Assembly (NCBI RefSeq): GCF_001586255.1
Contig: NZ_CP014544.1
Span: forward strand, 2,387,501-2,451,500
Reading direction: 5' to 3'
Origin: Zhongshania aliphaticivorans
Lineage (GTDB): Bacteria > Pseudomonadota > Gammaproteobacteria > Pseudomonadales > Spongiibacteraceae
DNA length: 64,000 nucleotides
Numbering within the stretch: the stretch's first letter is position 1; each line of letters begins with the position of its first letter. The notes under the pieces are model-generated. The model did no database searches and had not been told where the DNA came from. It saw only the letters and a list, made by a program, of their open reading frames with translations. Shown piece after piece: positions 14,614-39,059 of the stretch. Both the position numbers and the translations under genes were made by a program.

Positions 14614-15291
14614 CTACTGATCCACACTAATTCGCAAAGCGCCCGCTATCGCCAGCGGTGCCAGCGCCAAGGCAACCAGAAAAAACACGCCCAGCATCGC
14701 CAGTTGCGGTAGAAATGGGCCGCCGTCGACCGCCGTTTTAACGGCACTACTGCCAAAGATCAGCACGGGAATATACAGGGGTAAGATGATCAGTGACAAC
14801 AATAAGCCGCCCTTTCGCAAGCCTACGGTTAACGCCGCGCCAATAGCACCAATAAAGCTTAATACGGCGCTACCAAGCGCCAAGCTCGCCATCAAAGCCA
14901 GCATCCCCGCCGTCGGTAAATGCAGCAAAACACCTAATAAAGGTGAAAGTAGACTAAGAGGCAAACCGCTTAACAACCAGTGCGCCAAGGTTTTAGCGAT
15001 CACTTGCGGATATAAGGCTTGGTGGCTAAGCAGCATTTGCTCGAGGGTAGCGTCGTCGTAATCACTGCGAAATACCGTATCGCTGGCGAGTAAGGACGCT
15101 AATAAAGCCACCACCCACAATATTCCGGGCGCCAACTCCGCCAATCGCTGGGGTTCAGGCCCAATCCCGAGCGGAAACAGCGCACAGACCATGACAAAAA
15201 ACACGAGGGGATTTGACCATTCACTGCCCCGGCGCGCAGCGGCGAGCAAATCCCTACGCAATACGGCCAACGCCAAGCTAAATAACGTCAT
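14614..15291 (-). CDS. ccmB: haem ABC exporter permease CcmB
   Basis: 225 residues with six predicted membrane helices. The N-terminal cytoplasmic portion (LRRDLLAAARRGSEWSNPLVFF) and FPLGIGPEP and GILWVVALLASLLASD blocks are typical of CcmB. It pairs with CcmA in the ATP-dependent release of holo-CcmE. Start and upstream stop share one base (TAATG). Confidence 0.95.
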   Translation of the reverse strand: MTLFSLALAVLRRDLLAAARRGSEWSNPLVFFVMVCALFPLGIGPEPQRLAELAPGILWVVALLASLLASDTVFRSDYDDATLEQMLLSHQALYPQVIAKTLAHWLLSGLPLSLLSPLLGVLLHLPTAGMLALMASLALGSAVLSFIGAIGAALTVGLRKGGLLLSLIILPLYIPVLIFGSSAVKTAVDGGPFLPQLAMLGVFFLVALALAPLAIAGALRISVDQ

Positions 15292-15926
15292 TAATGCTCC
15301 CCCAATTCAATAATGCGGAGGGGGCGGTTAATCGCGAGTCGATGATGCGTGGTTAACAAGACCGCGCCACCGGCATTGGCAAATTCGCTAATCCATTGTT
15401 CAATTTCAGCGACACCGCCTTGATCAATAGCGGTAAAGGGTTCGTCTAAAATCCACAGCTGGGCCGGAATACAAAATAATCTAGCGAGATTAACGCGGCG
15501 CTGCTGCCCTGCAGACAAGCTGTAACAGGCTTGCTCTTCAAAGCCCCGCAAACCTACTTTGGCCAGGGCCGAGAGGATAGGATTGTCGTCTGCAGGTAGA
15601 CCACGCAAGGCGCAAGACCACCGCAGGTTTTCCAGTGGACTTAATGCCGCTTTGATACCAGCGCCATGACCGATATACAGCAATTGCTGGAGATAGTCAG
15701 CGCGCTGCTGTTCCAAAGAGTGGTTGTGCCAAAGGATATCGCCTTGGTAGCGACTGGATAAACCCGCCAAAATTCGCAGCAGACTGGTCTTGCCACTGCC
15801 ATTAGGACCGGCAATTTGCAGCACATCTCCGGCATTTAGCGTAAAACACAGATCAGCAAACAGCACGCGATCATCGCGCTCACTGTAGAGTTGCCTTACC
15901 TCCAGCCCTGTTTGTGCCAAAATCAC
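15291..15926 (-). CDS. ccmA: haem ABC exporter ATPase CcmA
   Basis: 211 residues with Walker A GPNGSGKTSL, signature YSLSAGQQRRVNLARLF and Walker B LWILDEPFTAID. Its LSAGQ signature is characteristic of CcmA. It is the first gene of the maturation operon; any promoter should lie in the 152 bp between it and the upstream CheA-like gene, unless it is read from the C-ring operon. No clear promoter was recognised there. Confidence 0.95.
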   Translation of the reverse strand: MILAQTGLEVRQLYSERDDRVLFADLCFTLNAGDVLQIAGPNGSGKTSLLRILAGLSSRYQGDILWHNHSLEQQRADYLQQLLYIGHGAGIKAALSPLENLRWSCALRGLPADDNPILSALAKVGLRGFEEQACYSLSAGQQRRVNLARLFCIPAQLWILDEPFTAIDQGGVAEIEQWISEFANAGGAVLLTTHHRLAINRPLRIIELGEH

Positions 15927-16078: not shown

Positions 16079-16948
16079 CTACCGGCGCTTCGCCCGGCTC
16101 TGCAGCCAGGCTTCCATATCCCGGGTGACTAAGTCCAGATAAGCTAGCGCCTTATCTAGCTCTGTCTTTTGTTCAAGCCCCTGAAAGCGGATTAAGCGAT
16201 TGCGCACCCAGCTCAACTCTTGAACCAAATGGCCTATACCGCTGTCGCCCGTCGTCACGTCAGTAACCAAAGCTGCTTGCGGCCTGACCATTGTCTCGGT
16301 AGCACTAGCTCCGCCAGCTTCACCGCCTCGGACAGCAACTTTGCGCGACGTTGGCCCCCTACCTTTGCCGTAGAGGCTATCGAGTAAGTTTTCAAATTCA
16401 TCATCAGTTATTTGATTTGCAGCAACCGACGGCAAGATGCCACCGGAACTTAGATTCAAGGGAGTGCTAGGTTTACGTGATGTTAGGCGACCATCGAAAA
16501 ACAAGCCCATGGGGTCGCTGTCGGTGTGTGGTGACACAATGGTATTCGCCGATTTATCGCTGCCATCTGCCGCTTGAACCAGACGCTGTTTTAACTCCCG
16601 GCTTAGCGTTTCAGGCTCCTGATGATTTATACGGCGGGCAAGCATTACCTGAACACTTTCCACTGCGCTTAAAATCAGCGACACCGCGGCCGGACTCAAG
16701 GCCATTCGCCGTGTACGCAAGCGCTCCATGAGTCGTTCAGAAAGTTGCGCGCACTCCACCAATTCAGCCAAGCCCAACACAGCAGCGCCGCCATAAAGGG
16801 TGTGAAAACCACGATGAATATCATCGAGGATACGCTGACCGTCGTAGCCATATTGCAGCTCGGCCAACTGTTCAGATAGGCGCTGGACAATTTCTTCGGC
16901 TTCCGCCAAAAAAATCGCCATAATCCCTTCGTGTTCAGTTTTATTCAC
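16079..16948 (-). CDS. CheA-like Hpt protein lacking the kinase domain
   Basis: 289 residues. The N-terminal 110 residues are an Hpt (P1) domain: IFLAEAEEIVQRLSEQL, then DDIHRGFHTLYGGAAVLG with candidate phospho-acceptor H49. The usual Lys after H-T-L is Tyr here. A disordered linker follows to about 225. The last 60 residues (LVQELSWVRNRLIRFQGLEQ ... ALAYLDLVTRDMEAW) match the start of the CheA P3 dimerisation domain, including the (V/L)VRNRLxR and NLDxVTxDLQ signatures of Pseudomonas CheA. The protein stops before the P4 ATPase and P5 domains, so it cannot autophosphorylate; a phosphate source elsewhere is required. It is the last gene of the C-ring operon, adjacent to ccmA. Confidence 0.75.
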   Translation of the reverse strand: MNKTEHEGIMAIFLAEAEEIVQRLSEQLAELQYGYDGQRILDDIHRGFHTLYGGAAVLGLAELVECAQLSERLMERLRTRRMALSPAAVSLILSAVESVQVMLARRINHQEPETLSRELKQRLVQAADGSDKSANTIVSPHTDSDPMGLFFDGRLTSRKPSTPLNLSSGGILPSVAANQITDDEFENLLDSLYGKGRGPTSRKVAVRGGEAGGASATETMVRPQAALVTDVTTGDSGIGHLVQELSWVRNRLIRFQGLEQKTELDKALAYLDLVTRDMEAWLQSRAKRR

Positions 16949-17076
16949 GCATAATCCAATTAAATCTCACGGTTCAACAAGCGCAGCAAGCACACATATT
17001 ATGATTATGACCAAATTATTCTCTGGCTACTGTAAGACCGATCACAATCCAGCAACTTGCCCACTGCATAGCGTCA

Positions 17077-17538
17077 TTAACCGTCAACTCTAGCAAAAAT
17101 GCGCATTATTTTGCTTTCCAGCATTGCCGCAGTGAAGGGTTTGACAATATACCCGTTCACACCCGCTTCAGCGGCTTCAATAATTTGCTCGCGGTGAGCA
17201 TCTGCGGTAATCATTAACACTGGAATATGGCGAAGTCGGCGATCAGCACGAATAGCCCGCAACAACTCAAGACCCGACATATGCGGCATTAACAAATCGG
17301 TAATAACAAAATCAAAATGCTGATTATGCAGCATAGGCAGTGCCGCTAAGCCGTCGTCTGCCTCACTAATGTAGCGATATCCCAAGTCGCCAAGGAGATT
17401 GCGAATTATCCGTCGCATTGTCGAAAAATCCTCAACGACCAAAATACGCATCTCGCTACGCAGGCCCGAGGCCGACGACACCGGATCACTGCTCTCCTGG
17501 TTGTGCTCAAAGGGATTCGGCGAGGAATTATCACCCAT
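17077..17538 (-). CDS. cheY: CheY-like single-domain response regulator
   Basis: 153 residues from the ATG at 17538, preceded by GGGGAG; it overlaps the fleN stop by 8 nt. From residue 30 it closely resembles Pseudomonas CheY (ILVVEDFSTMRRIIRNLLGD, EADDGLAALPML, GYIVKPFTA). Receiver residues are present: E36/D37 pocket, phospho-acceptor D81, T111, Y130 and K133. An N-terminal extension of 29 Ser/Asn-rich residues is unusual for CheY. Expected target: the N-terminal peptide of FliM encoded in the same operon. The partner phosphodonor may be an Hpt protein of this operon, as its CheA-like gene has no kinase. Confidence 0.87.
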   Translation of the reverse strand: MGDNSSPNPFEHNQESSDPVSSASGLRSEMRILVVEDFSTMRRIIRNLLGDLGYRYISEADDGLAALPMLHNQHFDFVITDLLMPHMSGLELLRAIRADRRLRHIPVLMITADAHREQIIEAAEAGVNGYIVKPFTAAMLESKIMRIFARVDG

Positions 17539-18379
17539 CGCGACGCTCCCCAATGCCCCGTCGCTGAGAGTCCACCGCCGTTAATTGTTCAATAAAAAAC
17601 AATAAGCGCCCCTCCATGCGGCTAGGCAAGGGCCACATTTGTATCTTTTTGCTAACGTCACGCAAAGCTCTGGCTGAAACGCTGCTTGGCGCATGTAATA
17701 TCACCGGATGGCGCTGGCGCACCGCATCGCGTAAGTGCTGATCAAAAGGAATTGCACCCGTGTAAATCAAAGCGACCTCAATAAACTGCTGACACACGTT
17801 ATTTAAAGTCTCAAAGACCTGCCGCCCCTCCGCTTCGTCTGCCACCATATTAGCCAGTATCCGAAATCGGCTGCGACCAAAATCCCTATTTAATAATTTA
17901 ATCATGGCGTAAGCGTCAGTTATCGAGCTCGGCTCATTACAGACCACCAATAACACCTCGTGGGCTGCGCTGACAAAATTTACCACCGAGTCAGAAATCC
18001 CCGCCGCAGTATCAACAATTAAAACATCCAGCTGCTCGGCGATCTCGCTGAACGCCCGAATCAAGCCCACATGTTCAAGGCTAGACAGCATGGTTAAACG
18101 CCGTGTGCCGGACGAAGCAGGAATAATTTTAATGCCCGCCGGCCCCGTTAACATTACCTCTTGCAGCGAGCAGCGCCCATCGAGAACATCCTCGATGGTT
18201 TTGGTACTACGCAAACCCAACAATACGTCGATATTCGCCAAACCAAAGTCGGCATCAAGTATTACCACTCGCTTACCCGCCTCAGCGAGCGCGACACTGA
18301 GATTAATAGCGACATTGGTTTTACCTACCCCGCCCTTGCCGCCACTGACGGCAATCACCTGCACCGGCCGGGAATTCAC
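17531..18379 (-). CDS. fleN: FleN/FlhG family MinD-like ATPase
   Basis: 282 residues from a GTG that overlaps the upstream stop (GTGA). Deviant Walker A SGGKGGVGKTN with K15 and K20, LDADFGLANIDVLLGL, VDTAAGISDSVVNF and SITDAYAMIKLLNRDFG are near-identical in pattern to Pseudomonas FleN. This family sets the number and polar position of flagella by binding FliM/FliN and handing C-ring pieces to the membrane. Like Pseudomonas FleN, it has no long N-terminal FlhF-activating helix. No flhF or fleQ is in the window. In this operon it probably places or counts the C-ring-like assembly. Confidence 0.9.
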   Translation of the reverse strand: MNSRPVQVIAVSGGKGGVGKTNVAINLSVALAEAGKRVVILDADFGLANIDVLLGLRSTKTIEDVLDGRCSLQEVMLTGPAGIKIIPASSGTRRLTMLSSLEHVGLIRAFSEIAEQLDVLIVDTAAGISDSVVNFVSAAHEVLLVVCNEPSSITDAYAMIKLLNRDFGRSRFRILANMVADEAEGRQVFETLNNVCQQFIEVALIYTGAIPFDQHLRDAVRQRHPVILHAPSSVSARALRDVSKKIQMWPLPSRMEGRLLFFIEQLTAVDSQRRGIGERRDG

Positions 18380-18933
18380 CCGTTCACCTGCGCAGCGCTA
18401 ATACTATGCTCGCGCCAAGGCATACCGGGCAGACGCCGAGAATAATCACCAATTTGCTCTACATTACACATTGCCATAATCTTTTTAAGCAAACGCAGAT
18501 CAACACTGTGCACATCAACTAAAAGCACGAGGCGGCCTGAATCAACATAGGACTGAAAATGTGCCAAATCTGGATTGTTTTCGGTCAAGCCAACAAAGCC
18601 ACCTTCCCACGCGCCAAAACACAAAAAGCTCAGCGGTAGCGAATAAAAAAGTATTTCGCGCGCTAAACCGTCGTTCAAATTAAAGGCGGACACAAAGATC
18701 ATTACCAATAGACAGCCAAGCAGAAACCCCCAGAATCCACCACGCCAAGCTCGACCATAAAGATTGCTGAGTAGCAGTTCGGAGGCCACTGGCACGCCCA
18801 TACGCTGCACATCGGCGACGTGCTTACTGACCACACACCAACGCCAGCCAGACAAATGAGGCTGATCCAGCATATCGGCAACTTCCCTAAGTTTGGCCGG
18901 GGTTTTACTTAAGAATATGAGGCGGTGCTTCAT
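18376..18933 (-). CDS. two-helix membrane protein of unknown function in the C-ring operon
   Basis: 185 residues. I do not recognise a named family with certainty. An N-terminal soluble part (RLIFLSKTPAKLREVADMLD) is followed by two membrane helices (about 64-84 and 92-117, glycine-rich turn GAWEGGFVG) and a C-terminal soluble part (FQSYVDSGRLVLLVDVHSVD) that looks like a repeat of the first. The plan, two small alpha/beta halves around a helix pair, recalls DUF1269-like membrane proteins. ATG at 18933 has AGGA upstream. It is translationally coupled to fleN (4-nt overlap) and follows fliN by 15 nt, so it is an integral part of the operon and a candidate membrane receptor or adaptor. Confidence 0.7.
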   Translation of the reverse strand: MKHRLIFLSKTPAKLREVADMLDQPHLSGWRWCVVSKHVADVQRMGVPVASELLLSNLYGRAWRGGFWGFLLGCLLVMIFVSAFNLNDGLAREILFYSLPLSFLCFGAWEGGFVGLTENNPDLAHFQSYVDSGRLVLLVDVHSVDLRLLKKIMAMCNVEQIGDYSRRLPGMPWREHSISAAQVNG

Positions 18934-18948
18934 TAAATCGTCCTGATC

Positions 18949-19386
18949 TCATCGCAAAGATTGTAAGCGTTCAGCGGGGCTAACGACTTCTGTCAATCGT
19001 ATGCCAAGCTTATCTTCTACCACCACAACTTCCCCTCTGGCGACCAAGGTACCGTTAACCAGAACATCGAGCGGCTCACCCGCCTGGCGATCCAACTCTA
19101 CAATAGCACCCTGATGCAACTGTAATAACTCTCGGATTGGCATATCCGCGCCGCCCACTTCGAGGGTAATGCGCACCGGAATATCGAGCACCATTTCCAG
19201 ATCTGGAGCAGCTGGCTTGCGGTCTTGCAGCCGCGCTCCCGCATGTTGAAACGCGCTGGTCGTCTGAAACCCCTCGCGGGCTTGATCATTACCCGACGCG
19301 CCCGCCCCGCCCCGATCGGCGGCTTCAATCTCTTCTTTGAGGGCCCGGCGCTGCCTGCGCAGCTCATCTTGATTATCCACGAGCAA
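18949..19386 (-). CDS. fliN: flagellar switch protein FliN
   Basis: 145 residues: a charged variable N-terminus and a SPOA domain from about residue 63 (LEMVLDIPVRITLEVGGADM ... LLQLHQGAIVELDR, GEPLDVLVNGTLVARGEVVV, KLGIRLTEVVSP), the canonical FliN core. FliN forms the base of the C-ring and, in flagella, docks export chaperone FliH. The start is uncertain between TTG 19386 and GTG 19380. No fliH, fliI or export gate gene accompanies it here. Confidence 0.93.
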   Translation of the reverse strand: MLVDNQDELRRQRRALKEEIEAADRGGAGASGNDQAREGFQTTSAFQHAGARLQDRKPAAPDLEMVLDIPVRITLEVGGADMPIRELLQLHQGAIVELDRQAGEPLDVLVNGTLVARGEVVVVEDKLGIRLTEVVSPAERLQSLR

Positions 19387-19413
19387 TATCTCTAAGCAGG
19401 TTTATCATTTTAA

Positions 19414-20370
19414 CTACGCCCTTCGGTCAATAATTTTGAGGGCTAGTTGGCCATTAGCCACGCCCAAGCTTGCCGTGGCCATTTCAACGCCACTGGCCTT
19501 TAATACTGAACGTTGACCAGCGCCCAGTGGAATAATATCGCCCACTTTCATGCTTGCCACTTCTCGTAAACTCAATATCGGCTCCGCAATCGTACATCGA
19601 GTGGCAACGCGTAAATCCAGCAAGGAGTCACGCAGAGCGGCTTGCCAATAGGGGTCTTCTACCGCTTGGTCAGCACTTTCTTTCTTACTCAGCTGATCTC
19701 GTACCGGCTCCAGCATTAATTGCGGCAATGTAATATGAAATTCACCGCCACCGCCGCCTTCGAGTTCAATTTGAAACCGACACAAAACCACGGTTTCGGA
19801 CTGCCCGGCAATGGCCGCCATAGCGGGATTCACTTCCATGGCAAGCCCTTCGCACTGCACGTCTTTGAACAAAGCCCAAGCCTGCTGGTAATCGCCGAGC
19901 GCACGCCGCACCAAACGCGCAAGCACTCGGCGCTCAACCGGACTAAAGTCGCGACCATCGGCGCTGCCCTGGCCACCGCTGCCACCAAAAAATATATCAA
20001 CCAATCTAAAGACTAAGCGCGCGTCAAACACCAACATTGCCGCCCCTTTCAGCGGGTGGACACGCATCAAGTTTAAACTGGTCGGCACATAGAGCGAATG
20101 CAAATACTCGCTGTACGGTAGAAATTGCAGATCGAGGGCGACAACATCCACCCCTTGACCCAAAACATCAGAAATACTGTCGCGAAAGCGCTCCGCAAAC
20201 CGTTTATTAAGCTGCTCCAGACCGGGCAAGCGGCGCTTTTTCGGCTGCCGTCGACTGGCCAAATCAAACGACCGCGGTGGCGTCGCAGCATCTTCTGCGC
20301 GAACATCTTGGGCCTGCACATTGGCCAGCAGGGCATCAATCTCTGCCTGCGATAGCAAGTCTTTAACCAT
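19414..20370 (-). CDS. fliM: flagellar switch protein FliM
   Basis: 318 residues from ATG 20370. Residues 6-15 read LSQAEIDALL, the N-terminal peptide that binds phospho-CheY. The middle CheC-like domain keeps LNKRFAERFRDSISDVL, the FFGGSGG loop that contacts FliG, and SPVERRVLARLVRRAL. A C-terminal SPOA domain (LRVATRCTIAEPILSLREVA, VGDIIPLGAGQRSVLKA) would bind FliN. Length and motifs are normal for a working FliM. 27 bp separate it from fliN. Confidence 0.94.
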   Translation of the reverse strand: MVKDLLSQAEIDALLANVQAQDVRAEDAATPPRSFDLASRRQPKKRRLPGLEQLNKRFAERFRDSISDVLGQGVDVVALDLQFLPYSEYLHSLYVPTSLNLMRVHPLKGAAMLVFDARLVFRLVDIFFGGSGGQGSADGRDFSPVERRVLARLVRRALGDYQQAWALFKDVQCEGLAMEVNPAMAAIAGQSETVVLCRFQIELEGGGGGEFHITLPQLMLEPVRDQLSKKESADQAVEDPYWQAALRDSLLDLRVATRCTIAEPILSLREVASMKVGDIIPLGAGQRSVLKASGVEMATASLGVANGQLALKIIDRRA

Positions 20371-20525
20371 ATAAAAACACAACCGTTAGCGCTGAACATG
20401 AATCATCAACACCAATGAATGCAAGGGACGAGCCAATTATTTTTATATAAAATCAATCACTTAGAAAAGTCATTACTGTCAACTAATTGACAGTAGCACT
20501 GAATTAGCCAGTAAATTGCTCAATA

Positions 20526-20882
20526 TTAAACGTGAGCAAGCCATTTATTAAGCGAGGCCATAGCCTCTTCAAAACTGCGCTGGGTATTGCCAAAATCTTG
20601 CTCTATACCACTGAAACTCGCATCGCGACCACGCAATTCTAAACCGCGAAACTGCTGCGATAGCCCCACCGCCCCCAGTGTGGCCGCGCCACCTTTTAAA
20701 CTATGAGCTGTCTGGCGCAGCGTTTCTGCATCGCGCCGCTCTATCGCTTGCGCTACTTGCAGTAAACGCTCACGAGTATCTTCCTCAAATTCACTAATTA
20801 GAATATGAAGGTCGGCGTCCATAAACTCGCGCAATTCATCTAATAAACTCAAATCCAAGGCATTCATATTTGCATCATCCAT
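20526..20882 (-). CDS. stand-alone histidine phosphotransfer (Hpt) protein
   Basis: About 118 residues from ATG 20882. A four-helix Hpt domain with the motif TAHSLKGGAATLGA places the phospho-His and the conserved Lys and Gly residues correctly. DLHILISEFEEDTRERLLQVAQAIERRD is the preceding helix pair, quoted only for orientation as FEEDTRERLLQVAQAIERRD. It could move phosphate between an outside hybrid kinase and the CheY-like protein of this operon. It sits between fliG (44 bp) and fliM (155 bp). Confidence 0.85.
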   Translation of the reverse strand: MDDANMNALDLSLLDELREFMDADLHILISEFEEDTRERLLQVAQAIERRDAETLRQTAHSLKGGAATLGAVGLSQQFRGLELRGRDASFSGIEQDFGNTQRSFEEAMASLNKWLAHV

Positions 20883-20926
20883 GTTGTTTATTGCCCAGTT
20901 GCGCACTAATTTCTGCGTCTACAAGC

Positions 20927-21928
20927 TCAGAATACATCTATTTTACGCGCATCAAGTATTATTTCACCCACTGCCGCCATCTGCTTCGCAATGCTAACTA
21001 TCTCGGCTCGCGCCGATTCAATTTCTGTGGGGCTAAAGCGCGAGCCAAGGGCGGCGATCGCCGCCACCTTATCCGCTGACAAACTTCCAAGCAGTTGCTT
21101 GCGCAACTCAGCACCAGTGCCTCGCAAGGCCGGGGCCAAAACTTCGGGGGCGAGCTGAGCAAGGAGTATTGTTAAATCTCGCGGCGCCATATTAGCAATT
21201 TGGGCAAAGCCAAACATGAGTTCCTCAACCCTCGCGGCACTTTCCGGCTGGGCATAACGAAGTCCGTTTAACAGCGTACTTTCCGTCCCAACATCCATTT
21301 CATTGAGCAATTTCGCCGCCATCGAGTCGCCTTGCAAGGCTCTGCCAACAGGGCGACCGAGGTCGCTGAAATACTGCTCCAACAACCACTCCAACTCTTC
21401 CAAAGCAGCGGGAGTAAGTGACTTAAGAGCCGATAAGCGCGCTAAAACATCAACGCGCTTTGCCTCGTCAAAGGCAAGCAACACCTCACTCGCCAAGCGA
21501 GGTTCCAAGCAGGCAACAACCACCGTCTGAATCTGGGGGTGCTCGCGGCGAATAATACCCGCGATAGTAGTGGCGTCTAACCACTTCAATTTTGCGATAT
21601 GCTTTGCCTGACCATGAAAGGCCAGCCTATCGCTCATCAACTTAGCCCGCTCCTCCCCCAGCGCCTCCTTAAGCAGACTCGATACCGCGTCACTAACACC
21701 CACTTTAACGCCAGAAAAATCGGTCACATCCCGATGAAAACGACGCAAAATAGTCAAGAAATCGGCATTGTTTGGCGCAGACATCATTGTCATGGCCTCG
21801 ACCACTCTATGTAAATCGCGAGGCACCATAGCGCGCATAACCGCAGCCGCATCAGCCTTATCTAAGGACATCAACAGTGCGGCCGCCTGCTCTGTACTCG
21901 ATAGCGTCACACTTGCGGAATTTACCAT
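20927..21928 (-). CDS. fliG: flagellar motor switch protein FliG with altered torque helix
   Basis: 333 residues from ATG 21928 (GCGAGG upstream), the length of classical FliG. The middle-domain EHPQ motif (129-132) that binds FliM and the MFxF hinge (MFGF 238-241) are present. In the C-terminal torque helix, aligned by eye to E. coli, K264 is R269 and R281 falls on D286. The D288/D289 pair that faces MotA falls on A293/L294. The torque charges are therefore largely lost while assembly surfaces remain. That suggests a ring that does not engage a normal stator. Fold and family are clear; the functional reading is inference. Confidence 0.9.
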   Translation of the reverse strand: MVNSASVTLSSTEQAAALLMSLDKADAAAVMRAMVPRDLHRVVEAMTMMSAPNNADFLTILRRFHRDVTDFSGVKVGVSDAVSSLLKEALGEERAKLMSDRLAFHGQAKHIAKLKWLDATTIAGIIRREHPQIQTVVVACLEPRLASEVLLAFDEAKRVDVLARLSALKSLTPAALEELEWLLEQYFSDLGRPVGRALQGDSMAAKLLNEMDVGTESTLLNGLRYAQPESAARVEELMFGFAQIANMAPRDLTILLAQLAPEVLAPALRGTGAELRKQLLGSLSADKVAAIAALGSRFSPTEIESARAEIVSIAKQMAAVGEIILDARKIDVF

Positions 21929-21985
21929 GCGCGCACAAACCTCGCAGAACACGCTAGTGACATTACGCCCCCTTGCCAGGCCATA

Positions 21986-22681
21986 TTATTGCCGCTCATC
22001 ATTTAGCCACGCACTTAACACCCCAGCAACACGCCCCGGCTCCTGCTTAGCAATCGCCTTCAAAGCCGACAGTTGCTCTTGATAATCATCGGCATCTTGC
22101 GTTTTCAGCAACTCACGGCTGCGCTGGCGACGCCAAAGCCACAAAACCAATAGCACAAAGGAAACGGCTACCACCCCTACAACTACTCGCCAAGCAAATA
22201 CCTTATCACCTATTCGTAAACCGCTAACGCCCCTAGCACCGGTTGGCGCGAAGCTATGAAACTGAACTACAATTTTGTCACCCCGCGCTGAGTTTAGCGC
22301 GAGCCCGGACCACAATATTTCCCGCAAACTTTGCGCTAAGGCACTATCCATTTCAGGGCGATTAATCAATAACGTGACCTGCCTAGCACCCGGTCTAACA
22401 TCATTTATATTAACGATAAGGCGAAAATCCGCCTCTGCCACAAAGGGCTCTATTAGTTGCTGGGATTGGCGCTGAAGCTGAATTTCACGCAGACTTACCT
22501 CGTCGGCAAGCTTATTTTGATCGACATACTGTAGCTGCCCTGCACTGAGCAACTGCGGCCAAACCGTCTGCGCAATCAAGCCACAGCCAATAAGCAGCAA
22601 GGCAATGAGCATTGCCTTCATTAAGTTGCCCACTAAACCCTTTTCAAACACAGTGCACTCCACCTCACCCCGCAAAGCCAT
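21986..22681 (-). CDS. miniature FliF-like MS-ring protein
   Basis: 231 residues versus about 550 in FliF. TM1 (21-40) is followed by a periplasmic domain matching FliF RBM3: REIQLQRQSQQLIEPFVAEA, then GARQVTLLINRP and LREILWSGLALNSARGDKIV. These correspond to FliF's ring-building domain, including its ...F-x-x-x-RGD-x-x-x-V... end. TM2 (164-183) leads to a cytoplasmic tail whose end, LKAIAKQEPGRVAGVLSAWL, matches the FliG-binding helix of FliF (DPRxVAxVIRxW). RBM1 and RBM2 are absent. The start is uncertain: ATG 22681, or GTG 22651 with GGTGGAG upstream. First gene of the operon. Confidence 0.78.
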   Translation of the reverse strand: MALRGEVECTVFEKGLVGNLMKAMLIALLLIGCGLIAQTVWPQLLSAGQLQYVDQNKLADEVSLREIQLQRQSQQLIEPFVAEADFRLIVNINDVRPGARQVTLLINRPEMDSALAQSLREILWSGLALNSARGDKIVVQFHSFAPTGARGVSGLRIGDKVFAWRVVVGVVAVSFVLLVLWLWRRQRSRELLKTQDADDYQEQLSALKAIAKQEPGRVAGVLSAWLNDERQ

Positions 22682-22881
22682 AGTCAAATATTTGACGGAT
22701 CGATAAATCCGATCAATTAGCAGCCTAAATTCGTCATATTATTGACAGCTGCGCAGGAGTAGCAAGCAAAACCCGCCACGCCAAACGTATGATGTTGAAA
22801 ACAATGCAGAAAGCGGGCCAGCAGCTGAGTGCGACCCGTAAGTGATGAAAAAATCTAAATGGCAGGCGTAAACAACTGGCC

Positions 22882-23790
22882 TCAGAGCTGCGTGATCTCG
22901 ATATAGTCACTTCGTGATGACAGCGGCACGCCACCAGAATCGATGGTTTGACTAGAGTCGAAACCATATTCTTTGCGTTCACCCGTACGGTCGATGGTGA
23001 GGTTGGCAAAATCAAATAACTCGGTATCGGCCATTTGCGAGGGCGCAATATTTTGCATAGACGAGAAAATTTTCTCTATGCGACTGCCGTCCTGTTTTTC
23101 CCAATCCAGCAGCATTTTACGAATATTCTGGCGCTGCAAATTCTCCTGTGAGCCACAGAGATTACAGGGAATAATGGGAAACTCTTTGTACTGCGAGAAC
23201 GCTTCAATATCTGACTCGCGGCAGTAAGCTAGCGGCCGAATCACAATATTGCGCTTGTCGTCTGACAGCAGTTTGGGGGGCATACCCGACAGCCGCGAGC
23301 CATAGAACATATTCAAAAACAGGGTTTGCACGATATCGTCTTTGTGATGTCCCAGTGCGATTTTAGTCGCGCCGATTTCTTCCGCAAAGGCATACAGGGT
23401 GCCACGGCGCAGACGCGAACACAGCCCACAGGTGGTTTTACCTTCAGGGATCTTTTGCTTAACAATCGAGTAGGTGTCTTTATTGACGATGTAATACTCA
23501 ATACCCAAGGCGTCAAGATACTCAGGCAGAATATGCTCGGGATAGAACGGCTGTTTCTGATCCATATTGACCGCCACCAGCTCAAACTTTACCGGCGCGC
23601 TCTTTTGCAAATTCATTAAGATATCCAGCATGGTATAGCTGTCTTTGCCACCAGACAGGCACACCATCACCCGATCGCCCTCTTCGATCATTTTATAGTC
23701 TTCAATCGCTTGCCCCGCATGGCGACGCAGGCGTTTTTGCAATTTATTGAACTCTAGCTTTGGCAAACTGGACATAGCACTTAAAATCAA
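22882..23790 (-). CDS. ttcA: tRNA 2-thiocytidine synthetase TtcA
   Basis: 302 residues with the PP-loop [10 protein letters not shown] and the two CxxC motifs typical of TtcA ([10 protein letters not shown] and [12 protein letters not shown]) that hold an iron-sulfur cluster. It thiolates cytidine 32 of certain tRNAs using ATP and a persulfide sulfur. The gene is monocistronic-looking: 200 bp separates its stop from the C-ring operon downstream. Confidence 0.96.
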
Positions 23791-37661: not shown

Positions 37662-39059
37662 ATGTCGAGAATAATGGTAGTTGATGACAATGCGGATATT
37701 CTCCACCTGCTCAAGCTCCGCTTACAATCAGCGGGCCATCAGGTCGAAACCGCCGAAAGCGGCGAACATGCTCTCGCGTATATTCCGAACTTTCAACCCC
37801 AGTTAGTGATTACCGATTTGTGCATGGACGGGATGGATGGCATGGCGCTATTTGAAAAGCTCAAATTCAATCAGCCTTCGCTGCCAGTCATCGTTATCAC
37901 CGCTCACGGCTCCATACCTCATGCGATCAAAGCGACTAAACAAGGCGTGTTCAGTTATGTTACAAAGCCTTTCGACAGCAATGCCTTACTCGCAGAAGTT
38001 AGCCGTGCACTCGCCTTGTCTTGCAGCGACGAAAGCGAGACCGAGGGTAATAGCTCACCTTTTGCTGAAATTGTCACCCGCAACTCAAGCGTATTGGAAA
38101 CCCTGCAGCAGGCCAAAATGGTTGCCGCGAGCGAAGCCAGTGTCTTAATTCAAAGTGAAAGCGGCACCGGCAAGGAGCTATTAGCGCGCGCCATACACCG
38201 CGCGAGTCCTCGAGCAAACAAACCTTTTATCGCCCTGAATTGCTGTTCGGTACCCAGCTCCCTTTTGGAGTCCGAGCTGTTCGGTCACGTTAAGGGCGCG
38301 TTTACCGGCGCCACCCGCGATCATCAAGGCCTTGTACTCGCCGCAGACGGCGGCACTTTGTTCCTCGATGAAATAGGCGATATGCCACTGGATTTTCAAG
38401 CAAAGCTCTTACGTGTGTTACAAGAGCGAGAAGTTCGCCCTGTTGGTGCTACCGCCTCTATTCCATTTAATGTTCGAATAATTTGCGCAACGCACCACGA
38501 CCTGGAAAAGTTGGTAGAAGACGGTACATTCCGTCAGGATTTATATTACCGTTTACATGTTGTGCAATTAGAACTACCGCCACTGCGCAGCCGCCGTGAT
38601 GATATTCCTTTGCTCTCTCAATACTTTCTTGAACAACTTTCGAATGAGCGCCGTAAAAAGCATTTTTCCTCTGAGGCCATGGAAACACTGGCCTCGGCAT
38701 CTTGGCCGGGCAATATTCGCCAACTGCGCAATGTTGTGGAACAAACCATGGTGCTTTCTCACACCGCCGTCATTCCAGTCTCGCTAGTTAAAAAGGCCCT
38801 AAAACAAGACGAGAGTAATATCGTGTCCTTCGTCGACGCTCGAGATCATTTTGAACGCGACTATTTAGTTGAGGTACTGCAAGTCACCGGTGGCAACGTT
38901 ACTCAAGCCGCCCAGTTAGCCAAACGCAACCGTACCGAGTTTTACCGCCTACTTCGGCGCCATCACCTCGACCCGCATAGCTTTAGAGGCCAAGCGGGGG
39001 ATTTTACGCCCAGCGGCCAAAGTGCAGCAGACAAATCAATTCAGCCTAAGCAGCTATAA
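37662..39059 (+). CDS. glrR: sigma-54-dependent response regulator GlrR
   Basis: 465 residues: receiver domain (VVDDN, phospho-acceptor D52, TKPFD), AAA+ domain with SESGTGKELLARAIH (Walker A), the GAFTGA loop that contacts sigma-54, GGTLFLDEIGDMP (Walker B), and a C-terminal Fis-type helix-turn-helix (GNVTQAAQLAKRNRTEFYRL). It activates transcription from -24/-12 promoters. Three such promoters with GlrR-like sites lie within 9 kb on both sides, so it is the likely local regulator. Confidence 0.95.
   Translation: MSRIMVVDDNADILHLLKLRLQSAGHQVETAESGEHALAYIPNFQPQLVITDLCMDGMDGMALFEKLKFNQPSLPVIVITAHGSIPHAIKATKQGVFSYVTKPFDSNALLAEVSRALALSCSDESETEGNSSPFAEIVTRNSSVLETLQQAKMVAASEASVLIQSESGTGKELLARAIHRASPRANKPFIALNCCSVPSSLLESELFGHVKGAFTGATRDHQGLVLAADGGTLFLDEIGDMPLDFQAKLLRVLQEREVRPVGATASIPFNVRIICATHHDLEKLVEDGTFRQDLYYRLHVVQLELPPLRSRRDDIPLLSQYFLEQLSNERRKKHFSSEAMETLASASWPGNIRQLRNVVEQTMVLSHTAVIPVSLVKKALKQDESNIVSFVDARDHFERDYLVEVLQVTGGNVTQAAQLAKRNRTEFYRLLRRHHLDPHSFRGQAGDFTPSGQSAADKSIQPKQL

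Follow-up and report, generated by a model that had tools for sequence, protein, structure and literature searches.

Functions of the flagellar switch complex (C-ring) other than motility have been described within working flagella, judging from the accessible parts of two reports (PMC3228812, PMC7064773). For a stand-alone switch without a motor, the accessible portions of the open-licence literature on such switches or on the genera considered here yielded nothing similar. Here, we describe an operon of this kind in a stretch of 64,000 nucleotides from Zhongshania aliphaticivorans, order Pseudomonadales, of the marine family Spongiibacteraceae (GCF_001586255.1, NZ_CP014544.1, positions 2,387,501 to 2,451,500; hereafter the window). 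Nine intact, co-directional open reading frames (ORFs) on the minus strand at window positions 16079-22681 encode a flagellar switch together with signalling proteins. Its parts are known ones; the assembly as a whole is not known. It is well supported that the operon is the order's ancestral polar flagellar-chemotaxis cluster, shrunk in place to switch and signalling proteins and kept under selection. It is likewise well supported that the genes for swimming come from a second, divergent flagellar set elsewhere in the genome, which we conclude to be the newcomer. From first gene to last, the operon comprises the following.

21986..22681, minus strand: mini-FliF, with a first transmembrane segment (TM1), an RBM3-like ring-building domain without the beta-collar, a second transmembrane segment (TM2) and a FliG-binding tail (hhalign, AlphaFold (AF2), PDB fold search, hydropathy).
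20927..21952, minus strand: FliG with N, M and C domains, EHPQ loop retained, torque helix lost (Pfam; FliG alignment).
20526..20906, minus strand: Hpt phosphotransfer protein, AHSLKGG motif retained (Pfam 1e-12; alignment).
19414..20382, minus strand: FliM with the CheY-docking N-terminus LLSQAEIDALL and an FGGSG loop (Pfam; TIGR01397 over cut-off).
18949..19386, minus strand: FliN (Pfam; TIGR02480 over cut-off).
18376..18933, minus strand: membrane protein with a helical hairpin, paralogue of a gene widespread in the order (relatives in 170/390 order genomes; AF2 predicted local distance difference test (pLDDT) 83).
17531..18379, minus strand: FleN/FlhG-type MinD-like ATPase (ParA/MinD-like in Pfam and NCBIfam; identity to FleN).
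17077..17553, minus strand: CheY, phosphorylation site intact in the source genome (Pfam 2e-29; alignment).
16079..16948, minus strand: CheA remnant with P1 (Hpt), a DDEFE..LLD linker and the P3 helix, without P4 and P5 (Pfam Hpt only; aligned with full CheA of two ordinary clusters).

A prior reading of the letters alone (the sequence-only reading) had listed nine intact co-directional genes, and the ORFs, the Pfam and NCBIfam matches and, for mini-FliF, profile and fold comparison bear this list out. The first gene has its earliest ATG at 22681 and is listed with a TTG start at 22687. Pfam recognised the N, M and C domains of FliG (6e-19, 3e-18 and 2e-17), FliM (2e-48), FliN (7e-24), Hpt (1e-12), the response regulator (2e-29), a ParA/MinD-type ATPase (7e-21) and an Hpt domain in the protein that had been called CheA-like (2e-12). 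In NCBIfam, FliM and FliN exceeded the cut-offs and FliG stayed below its own (135 vs 226.7 bits). Homologues of all three C-ring proteins with the expected domains are thus present, FliG by Pfam and at a sub-cut-off score in NCBIfam. Mini-FliF and the membrane protein had no significant match in Pfam or NCBIfam.

Mini-FliF matches the C-terminal third of FliF (columns 395-584; hhalign 96%, E 4e-9). Hydropathy places its transmembrane segments at 25-43 and 163-181, and its AF2 model shows a helix-strand-strand-helix-strand arrangement flanked by two long helices (pLDDT 72, predicted template modelling score 0.39). The best PDB matches of this model, 7bk0 and 8z5v, are FliF MS-rings (E 3e-4), the support for the fold resting on their ranking because the TM-scores are only 0.3-0.4. 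Only part of RBM3, TM2 and the tail align; RBM1, RBM2 and the collar have been lost. The maintained MS-ring of the sequence-only reading is not supported, FliF being cut to one ring-building domain, two membrane helices and a tail, and in relatives to a membrane hairpin fused to FliG (4/19) or a bare tail (1/19). Its CheA-like protein does carry the Hpt domain but is a remnant: aligned with ordinary CheA, it spans P1, the DDEFE..LLD linker and the P3 helix and then ends, without the kinase (P4) or the CheW-like, CheW-binding (P5) domain of a CheA-CheY pathway.

The AF2 model of the membrane protein bears a weak resemblance in fold to ActD of alternative complex III (E 5e-3). Among its relatives in the order, E values <1e-15 occurred only within the window's genus, and no switch gene adjoined at five paralogue loci outside it (L065-L069; labels of this form are our handles for loci and genomes). 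In some genomes (L066, L068, L069) the paralogues adjoin apparent cytochrome oxidase genes. BLAST with the genome's own flagellar proteins, MotA, MotB, CheW and CheZ not being among the queries, found no further flagellar genes in the window, and a family search matched MotB and CheW only outside it. The claim that no flagellum surrounds the operon thus holds for the window and fails for the genome.

The source genome, a single contig (C1) of 4,204,359 bases, carries main flagellar clusters at C1:1335666-1353144 (flgN to flgL, flhA, flhF, fleN, fliA) and C1:2605463-2626205 (fliK to fliE, fliS, fliD, flaG, fliC, flhB to fliO, fliN, fliM, fliL), with motAB at C1:3560737-3562347. FlhA, FliG, FliM/N and MotB were located by family search, and the remaining main-cluster genes were named by eye from gene order and sequence starts. 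FliG_C matched twice in the genome and FliMN_C four times, one set in the main flagellum and one in the operon. The main set has its own fliF, fliG, fliM and fliN, its FliG carries the torque helix, and the genome's export gate, ATPase, rod, hook and filament genes sit in these same clusters. Because this separate flagellum has its own FliF, FliG, FliM and FliN, the operon is a second, divergent switch; the genome search that had been proposed, for a second fliFGMN set and for flagellar genes, turned up a flagellar gene set that includes a switch. The genome thus does not show the result that the sequence-only reading had named as refuting it, a complete flagellar gene set with no fliF/G/M/N belonging to it. 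The single FlhA-family match lies inside a flagellar cluster, and an injectisome (gate plus SctQ) was not found with FlhA as the one gate family searched. As a set, the family's swimming flagellum is divergent, its FlhA being 52-59% identical to the order's usual FlhA, vs 55-71% within the order (20 pairs printed). Beside the fliL end of the main cluster lie two near-identical short ORFs for PpiC-like peptidyl-prolyl isomerases (named by eye; C1:2626451-2626729 and 2627518-2627796).

CheW-family matches in the source genome were limited to frames of 190 and 1797 aa, which we take, by their sizes, to be PilI and ChpA of a Pil-Chp system. By this search a flagellar CheA was not found; the large Pil-Chp-type CheA remains. 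Across the family, flagellar-type CheA (683-715 aa frames) occurs in 12 of 21 genomes and a ChpA-sized CheA in 20 of 21. The nine in which flagellar-type CheA was not found include the source, and three of the nine are <90% complete. With flagellar CheA in just 12 of 21 genomes, the operon does not depend on it. A link between CheA loss and an intact operon CheY (intact site in 6/7 without CheA vs 4/12 with it, Fisher p 0.057, but only three independent pairs on supported branches) is not claimed. MinE is present in the source genome. For a relative, Spongiibacter nanhainus, the accessible part of one report describes single flagella and a light-induced che-mot cluster (PMC8805636), which may be read as consistent with a working second flagellum.

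The operon occupies a fixed place between two flanking genes.

22882..23790, minus strand: ttcA, the same flank in 19/19 genomes.
15291..15926, minus strand: ccmA, start of the ccm cluster, the same flank in 19/19 genomes.

These 19 operon genomes are the window, 15 others of the genus, G272 (also of the genus) and two of the sister genus (G095, G390); the named relatives are Zhongshania, Spongiibacter marinus and Neomelitea. In all 19, the ttcA-ccmA interval holds FliG, FliM, FliN, CheY and the CheA remnant, with complete core ORFs. Two FliMs, one per type, are found in 20 of the 21 family genomes, and the 21st (70% complete) has none. Among 125 genomes of the order, FliM occurs in 85, with two copies in five, all of this family, and one in the other 80; at the 26 single-FliM loci examined, fliK, fliL, fliO or fliP adjoins fliM every time. 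A pattern scan with the operon FliG over 84,980 species, one genome per species, returned at least 381 relatives. The best 80 of these comprise eight instances of this operon and 72 ordinary flagellar clusters, 71 with fliI nearby and one at a contig end with fliE, fliF and fliH. In the nearest relatives an orphan CheY-like protein of ~160 aa is encoded a few genes from the operon (L050:16364-16846, L051:17082-17561).

The same neighbourhood recurs in ordinary flagellar clusters. In seven of ten such clusters from other families (G060, G026, G009, G020, G037, G094, G068) the che genes run on into ccm; the run-on was not seen in G038, G083 and G005 within the stretch read. These seven clusters read fliM-fliN-...-fleN-fliA-cheY-cheZ-cheA-...-ccm, the gene order of the operon (cheZ being identified by its position). 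In G060, fliF-fliG lie upstream within the same cluster, and an hpt-like gene, by similarity, stands ahead of fliK in G038 and G016. The ancestral order that we propose from these comparisons is fliF-fliG-(HIJ)-hpt-(KL)-fliM-fliN-(OPQR, flhB, flhA, flhF)-fleN-(fliA)-cheY-(cheZ)-cheA-(...)-ccmA. The operon has this order minus the bracketed genes, the membrane protein being the sole addition. Operon FliM shares 40-43% identity with the ordinary FliM of 10 clusters and 27% with main FliM; between ordinary and main FliM the figure is 27-29%. For FleN the values are 53-60% (operon-ordinary, seven clusters), 44% (operon-main) and 50-53% (ordinary-main). All operon rows group in a FliM tree of 61 rows with very long branches; a FleN tree, its root pulled to long outgroup branches, was not used. 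A recent duplication of the main switch is disfavoured by these FliM and FleN identities and by the locus; the FliM tree alone does not reject it, and FliN and FliG are of no help.

What was lost and what was kept can be read from alignments. In an alignment of 19 operon, 3 main and 7 ordinary FliGs, 64 columns are invariant in the 10 comparison (main and ordinary) sequences. Operon FliGs keep on average 11% of the 12 invariant columns in the torque-helix region, vs 63% of the 52 elsewhere. The four charged torque-helix columns are kept in 1, 0, 0 and 0 of the 19, and in 10/10 comparison FliGs by construction of the count, so that a torque helix with stator-contacting charges is absent from operon FliG. 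The EHPQ loop is intact in 19/19, judged from sequence; the roles of this loop (FliM contact) and of the torque helix, as well as the co-fold of FliF tail and FliG, follow the accessible part of PMC7355467. The FliF tail lies within a separate mini-FliF in 11 of the 19 operons; it is fused to FliG with a periplasmic domain in three, by a membrane hairpin only in four, and with no membrane segment in one (G272). Spongiibacter marinus is a species in which hairpin, FliF tail and FliG are naturally fused. SQ.E[IV]DALL, the CheY-docking site, stands at the N-terminus of all 19 operon FliMs. At this place the main FliM of the source genome has LDPEELEALM; sister-genus main FliM retains EEIDALM. Of the assembly motifs said to be kept, the FliG-FliM contact, the FliF tail and CheY docking are, and the torque helix is not. 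The Hpt histidine is present in 17/17 operons having Hpt and that of the CheA remnant in 18/19. By positions 12/13, 57, 87 and 109 (E. coli numbering), 10 of 19 CheY proteins appear functional. In sum, the export gate, the rod, the greater part of FliF, the kinase core of CheA and the torque-helix charges of FliG have been lost; the core constant in all 19 (FliF tail with FliG, FliM, FliN, CheY and the P1 domain) points to a possible CheY scaffold rather than a membrane or export role.

The operon is under purifying selection. Compared with the nearest relative (L050), seven genes (FliG, Hpt, FliM, FliN, the membrane protein, FleN and CheY) have ratios of nonsynonymous to synonymous substitution rates (dN/dS) of 0.03-0.08; the CheA remnant has 0.12, mini-FliF 0.33, and the flanking ttcA, ccmA and ccmB 0.01-0.10. 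Values for L053/L057 are 0.01-0.13, mini-FliF having 0.20, and the computable values for window/L051 and L052/L055 are 0.05-0.13, several saturated ones not being computable. L063 and L064 are very close to each other, and in this pair the values rise to 0.28-0.29 for the membrane protein and the CheA remnant and to 0.21 for flanking ccmA. FliM matches in G123 and G252 show an in-frame stop in the search output; the frames are complete at 317 aa and the stop is taken as the normal gene end. With a separate flagellum owning its FliF, FliG, FliM and FliN, torque charges lost and purifying selection in force, the idea of a maintained C-ring set with CheY and FleN that does not serve swimming stood up well.

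Four candidate regulatory elements accompany the genes.

22806..22820, minus strand: sigma54-type -24/-12 element TGGCCCGCTTTCTGC; such an element lies upstream in 16/17 genus genomes.
22733..22746, no strand assigned: FleQ-type box 1 GTCATATTATTGAC, one of five strict genome sites (reversed control three).
22683..22696, no strand assigned: FleQ-type box 2 GTCAAATATTTGAC, next to the ATG (pattern search).
20478..20491, no strand assigned: third, imperfect FleQ-type box GTCAACTAATTGAC, before fliM; the strict form occurs there in 11/17 genus genomes.

A pattern TGG[CT]C-N6/7-[CT]TGC, fixed after inspection of the sequences and modelled on the sigma54 -24/-12 consensus, is found 82-274 bases ahead of the gene start in 16 of the 17 genus genomes; base shuffles give an expectation of 0.23 of 17. 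In L058, the remaining genome, the element is a variant, and the strict box before fliM sits just inside the end of hpt. Between the sigma54 element and the start-codon region lie two GTCA-W6-TGAC sites ~40-52 bases apart. Strict pairs occur in 13/17 genus genomes, L061 and L062 have one strict box and one with a C in the spacer, and L059 and L060 have two boxes each with the same half-site changed. The sites match the FleQ consensus GTCaNTAAAtTGAC given in the accessible parts of PMC6120874 and PMC10723142. Of the five strict sites, two are at the operon, one immediately precedes the gene for a sigma54 activator of 458 aa, another stands between ppx and ppk, and the last is inside a kinase gene (names by eye). 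The ppx/ppk site (C1:760679-760692) separates an apparent exopolyphosphatase gene from an apparent polyphosphate kinase gene. The 458-aa activator is 50% identical over 448 residues to a 511-aa FleQ-type protein of G020 and has GAFTGA and an RRTTL.EK.RK helix; its N-terminal part is 27% identical and Pfam does not call a FleQ domain there. One main-cluster activator is equally similar to the G020 protein (50% over 348), with a like helix. A close relative of the 458-aa activator is present in 18/18 genus genomes, six of them matched only from ~residue 125, and a strict box lies near its start in 11 of 18. No strict box was found in 240 kb read around the main flagellar clusters. With a sigma54 element, boxes and a FleQ-like activator present, the operon is predicted to belong to a FleQ/sigma54 regulon. 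Elsewhere in the window, at 37662-39059, is another sigma54-dependent activator, which over 217 residues shares ~51% identity with an activator of the main flagellar cluster.

The explanation that we consider somewhat probable is that the ancestral cluster was reduced in place and its C-ring kept as a non-rotating, non-secreting scaffold that responds to CheY and Hpt and is controlled by FleQ and FleN. The sequences support what is said of gene content, origin, losses, selection and promoter elements; from them we infer ring assembly, membrane tethering in the source species, CheY docking and FleQ/FleN control. FliG, FliM and FliN would build a putative C-ring, tethered in the source species by mini-FliF. 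It could not rotate, because it has no torque helix, nor export, because there is no gate and no rod-bearing MS-ring. FliM would dock CheY, which in the source genome could receive its phosphate, by way of Hpt and the CheA remnant, from a kinase whose gene lies elsewhere. FleQ with sigma54 would turn the operon on, and FleN would aid ring assembly and restrain FleQ, so that rings may be counted as flagella once were. FlhG is reported to have a role in C-ring assembly in other bacteria (Schuhmacher, 2015; PMC12327844), and FleN to control FleQ (PMC10723142); one operon could therefore hold the ring, its assembly ATPase and part of a regulator loop. By holding or releasing CheY and FleN, the scaffold may tune motility or surface behaviour, an output that is a guess. 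Going further, and more tentatively, a free-standing, non-rotary, non-secretory, CheY-docking C-ring with FleQ-sigma54-FleN control may be a distinct machine of this family, descended from a polar flagellum that gave up its motor once swimming had passed to a second flagellum.

A number of observations weigh against this explanation. On the side of origin, FliN is uninformative, with 46-52% operon-ordinary and 48% operon-main identity. Ordinary FliG is nearer to main FliG (37-39%) than to the operon FliG (31-35%), which is fast-evolving and 23% identical to main FliG. In a FliM tree of 44 rows without outgroup, a clade of operon and main sequences was not rejected (approximately unbiased test, p 0.53). 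This tree omitted operon rows L057 and L064 (near-copies) and L061 and G272 (long branches), as well as loci L090, L097, L113-L120, L122 and several named rows. Because the FliM tree, FliN and FliG do not settle the matter, vertical origin rests on locus, gene order and the FliM and FleN identities. On the side of control, the strict box pattern occurs at five genome places vs three for a reversed control, so single box sites mean little. The FleQ motif is unreliable genome-wide in P. fluorescens, according to the accessible part of PMC6120874, and neither boxes nor a sigma54 element were found at the two sister-genus operons. As to composition, the search of the sister-genus operons (G095, G390; 2/19) found neither FleN nor Hpt, the membrane protein was not found in those of G272 and G390 (2/19), and no membrane anchor of any kind was found in one of the 19 (G272). 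No single wiring therefore fits all 19; what they share is the place between ttcA and ccmA and the core genes. Finally, the CheY active site is altered in 9/19 (six with S or G at 13; L059-L061 with further changes), and in L060 and L061 the phosphorylated aspartate itself is changed, so phospho-signalling is not a universal function. Of the proposal that the ring receives CheY-type signals, the docking motif, present in 19/19 FliMs, survives, and an intact CheY in every genome does not. Positioning by FleN, which the sequence-only reading also proposed, stays hypothetical, the two sister-genus operons having yielded no FleN.

Among the alternatives, the one that fares best, itself unlikely, makes the operon an accessory of the swimming flagellum: its FliM and FliN would mix into the main motor, or its ring would cap or count that motor, providing CheY input or a limit on flagellar number. 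Both FliM types occur together in each of the 20 family genomes that have FliM at all, the canonical docking motif is on the operon FliM and not on the source main FliM, and flagellar-type CheA was not found in nine genomes, all of which would fit. The two sets, however, share only 23% (FliG) and 27% (FliM) identity, operon FliG is without stator-contacting charges, the main clusters have no strict box in the 240 kb read, and sister-genus main FliM still has EEIDALM. Slightly less probable again is a pole or division-site marker, in which C-ring and FleN inhibit polar division as FlhG does with FliF, FliM and FliN in Campylobacter jejuni. The protein set is much like that of C. jejuni, where minicell phenotypes revealed the system, but the source genome has MinE and C. 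jejuni is without a Min system, as the part of that report available states (PMC3228812). FleN was, moreover, not found in sister-genus operons, and the retention of CheY docking, Hpt and the CheA remnant would go unexplained. That the operon is a functionless relic being lost seems very improbable: progressive loss of FliF down to a bare tail, the altered CheY sites in 9/19 and a mini-FliF dN/dS of up to 0.33 speak for it, whereas core ORFs are complete in 19/19, dN/dS is low for most genes and pairs, and promoter and boxes are conserved across the genus. A displaced switch of a normal motor is rejected, since the flagellar gene set elsewhere in the genome has its own fliF, fliG, fliM and fliN with a torque helix.

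On the explanation that we favour, reduction in place to a CheY-responsive scaffold, the operon is a natural subtraction experiment on the flagellum, in which evolution removed motor and export and retained the switch. If a ring forms, it would show a use of the C-ring besides turning a rotor, offer a minimal setting in which to study ring assembly and CheY switching, and test whether the switch complex is by itself a platform for signalling. The series that leads from separate mini-FliF through fused membrane hairpin to no membrane segment illustrates, step by step, the paring-down and reuse of a nanomachine.

Among the closest described systems is the C-ring of the gammaproteobacterial polar flagellum, with which the operon shares homologous subunits, gene order, the place beside ccm, the EHPQ loop, the FliF tail and the CheY-docking motif. 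It differs in having no torque helix, no complete FliF and no export, rod, hook or filament genes, and in standing apart from the swimming set. Campylobacter jejuni likewise employs FlhG, FliF, FliM and FliN in a non-motility job, but there, according to the available part of the report, the parts belong to working flagella (PMC3228812); here they form a separate set in a genome with MinE. The checkpoint in which MS-ring and rotor are read by FlgS, FlrB or FleS similarly uses FliF-FliG as a two-component signal platform; as outlined in the accessible portion of PMC7064773, it needs an export gate, which the operon lacks, as it does an FlgS or FleS gene. Engineered FliF-FliG fusions, so far as the available text of PMC11481574 and PMC6079021 describes them, also join the FliF tail to FliG; those of the operon are natural, and in some species most or all of the periplasmic part of FliF is gone. 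The Pseudomonas FleQ-FleN regulon, as presented in accessible parts of PMC10723142 and PMC6120874, resembles the operon in its sigma54-type promoter, paired GTCA-N6-TGAC boxes and a FleN gene in the target operon. What sets the operon apart from that regulon is its target, a motorless switch, the 240 kb read around the swimming clusters being free of strict boxes.

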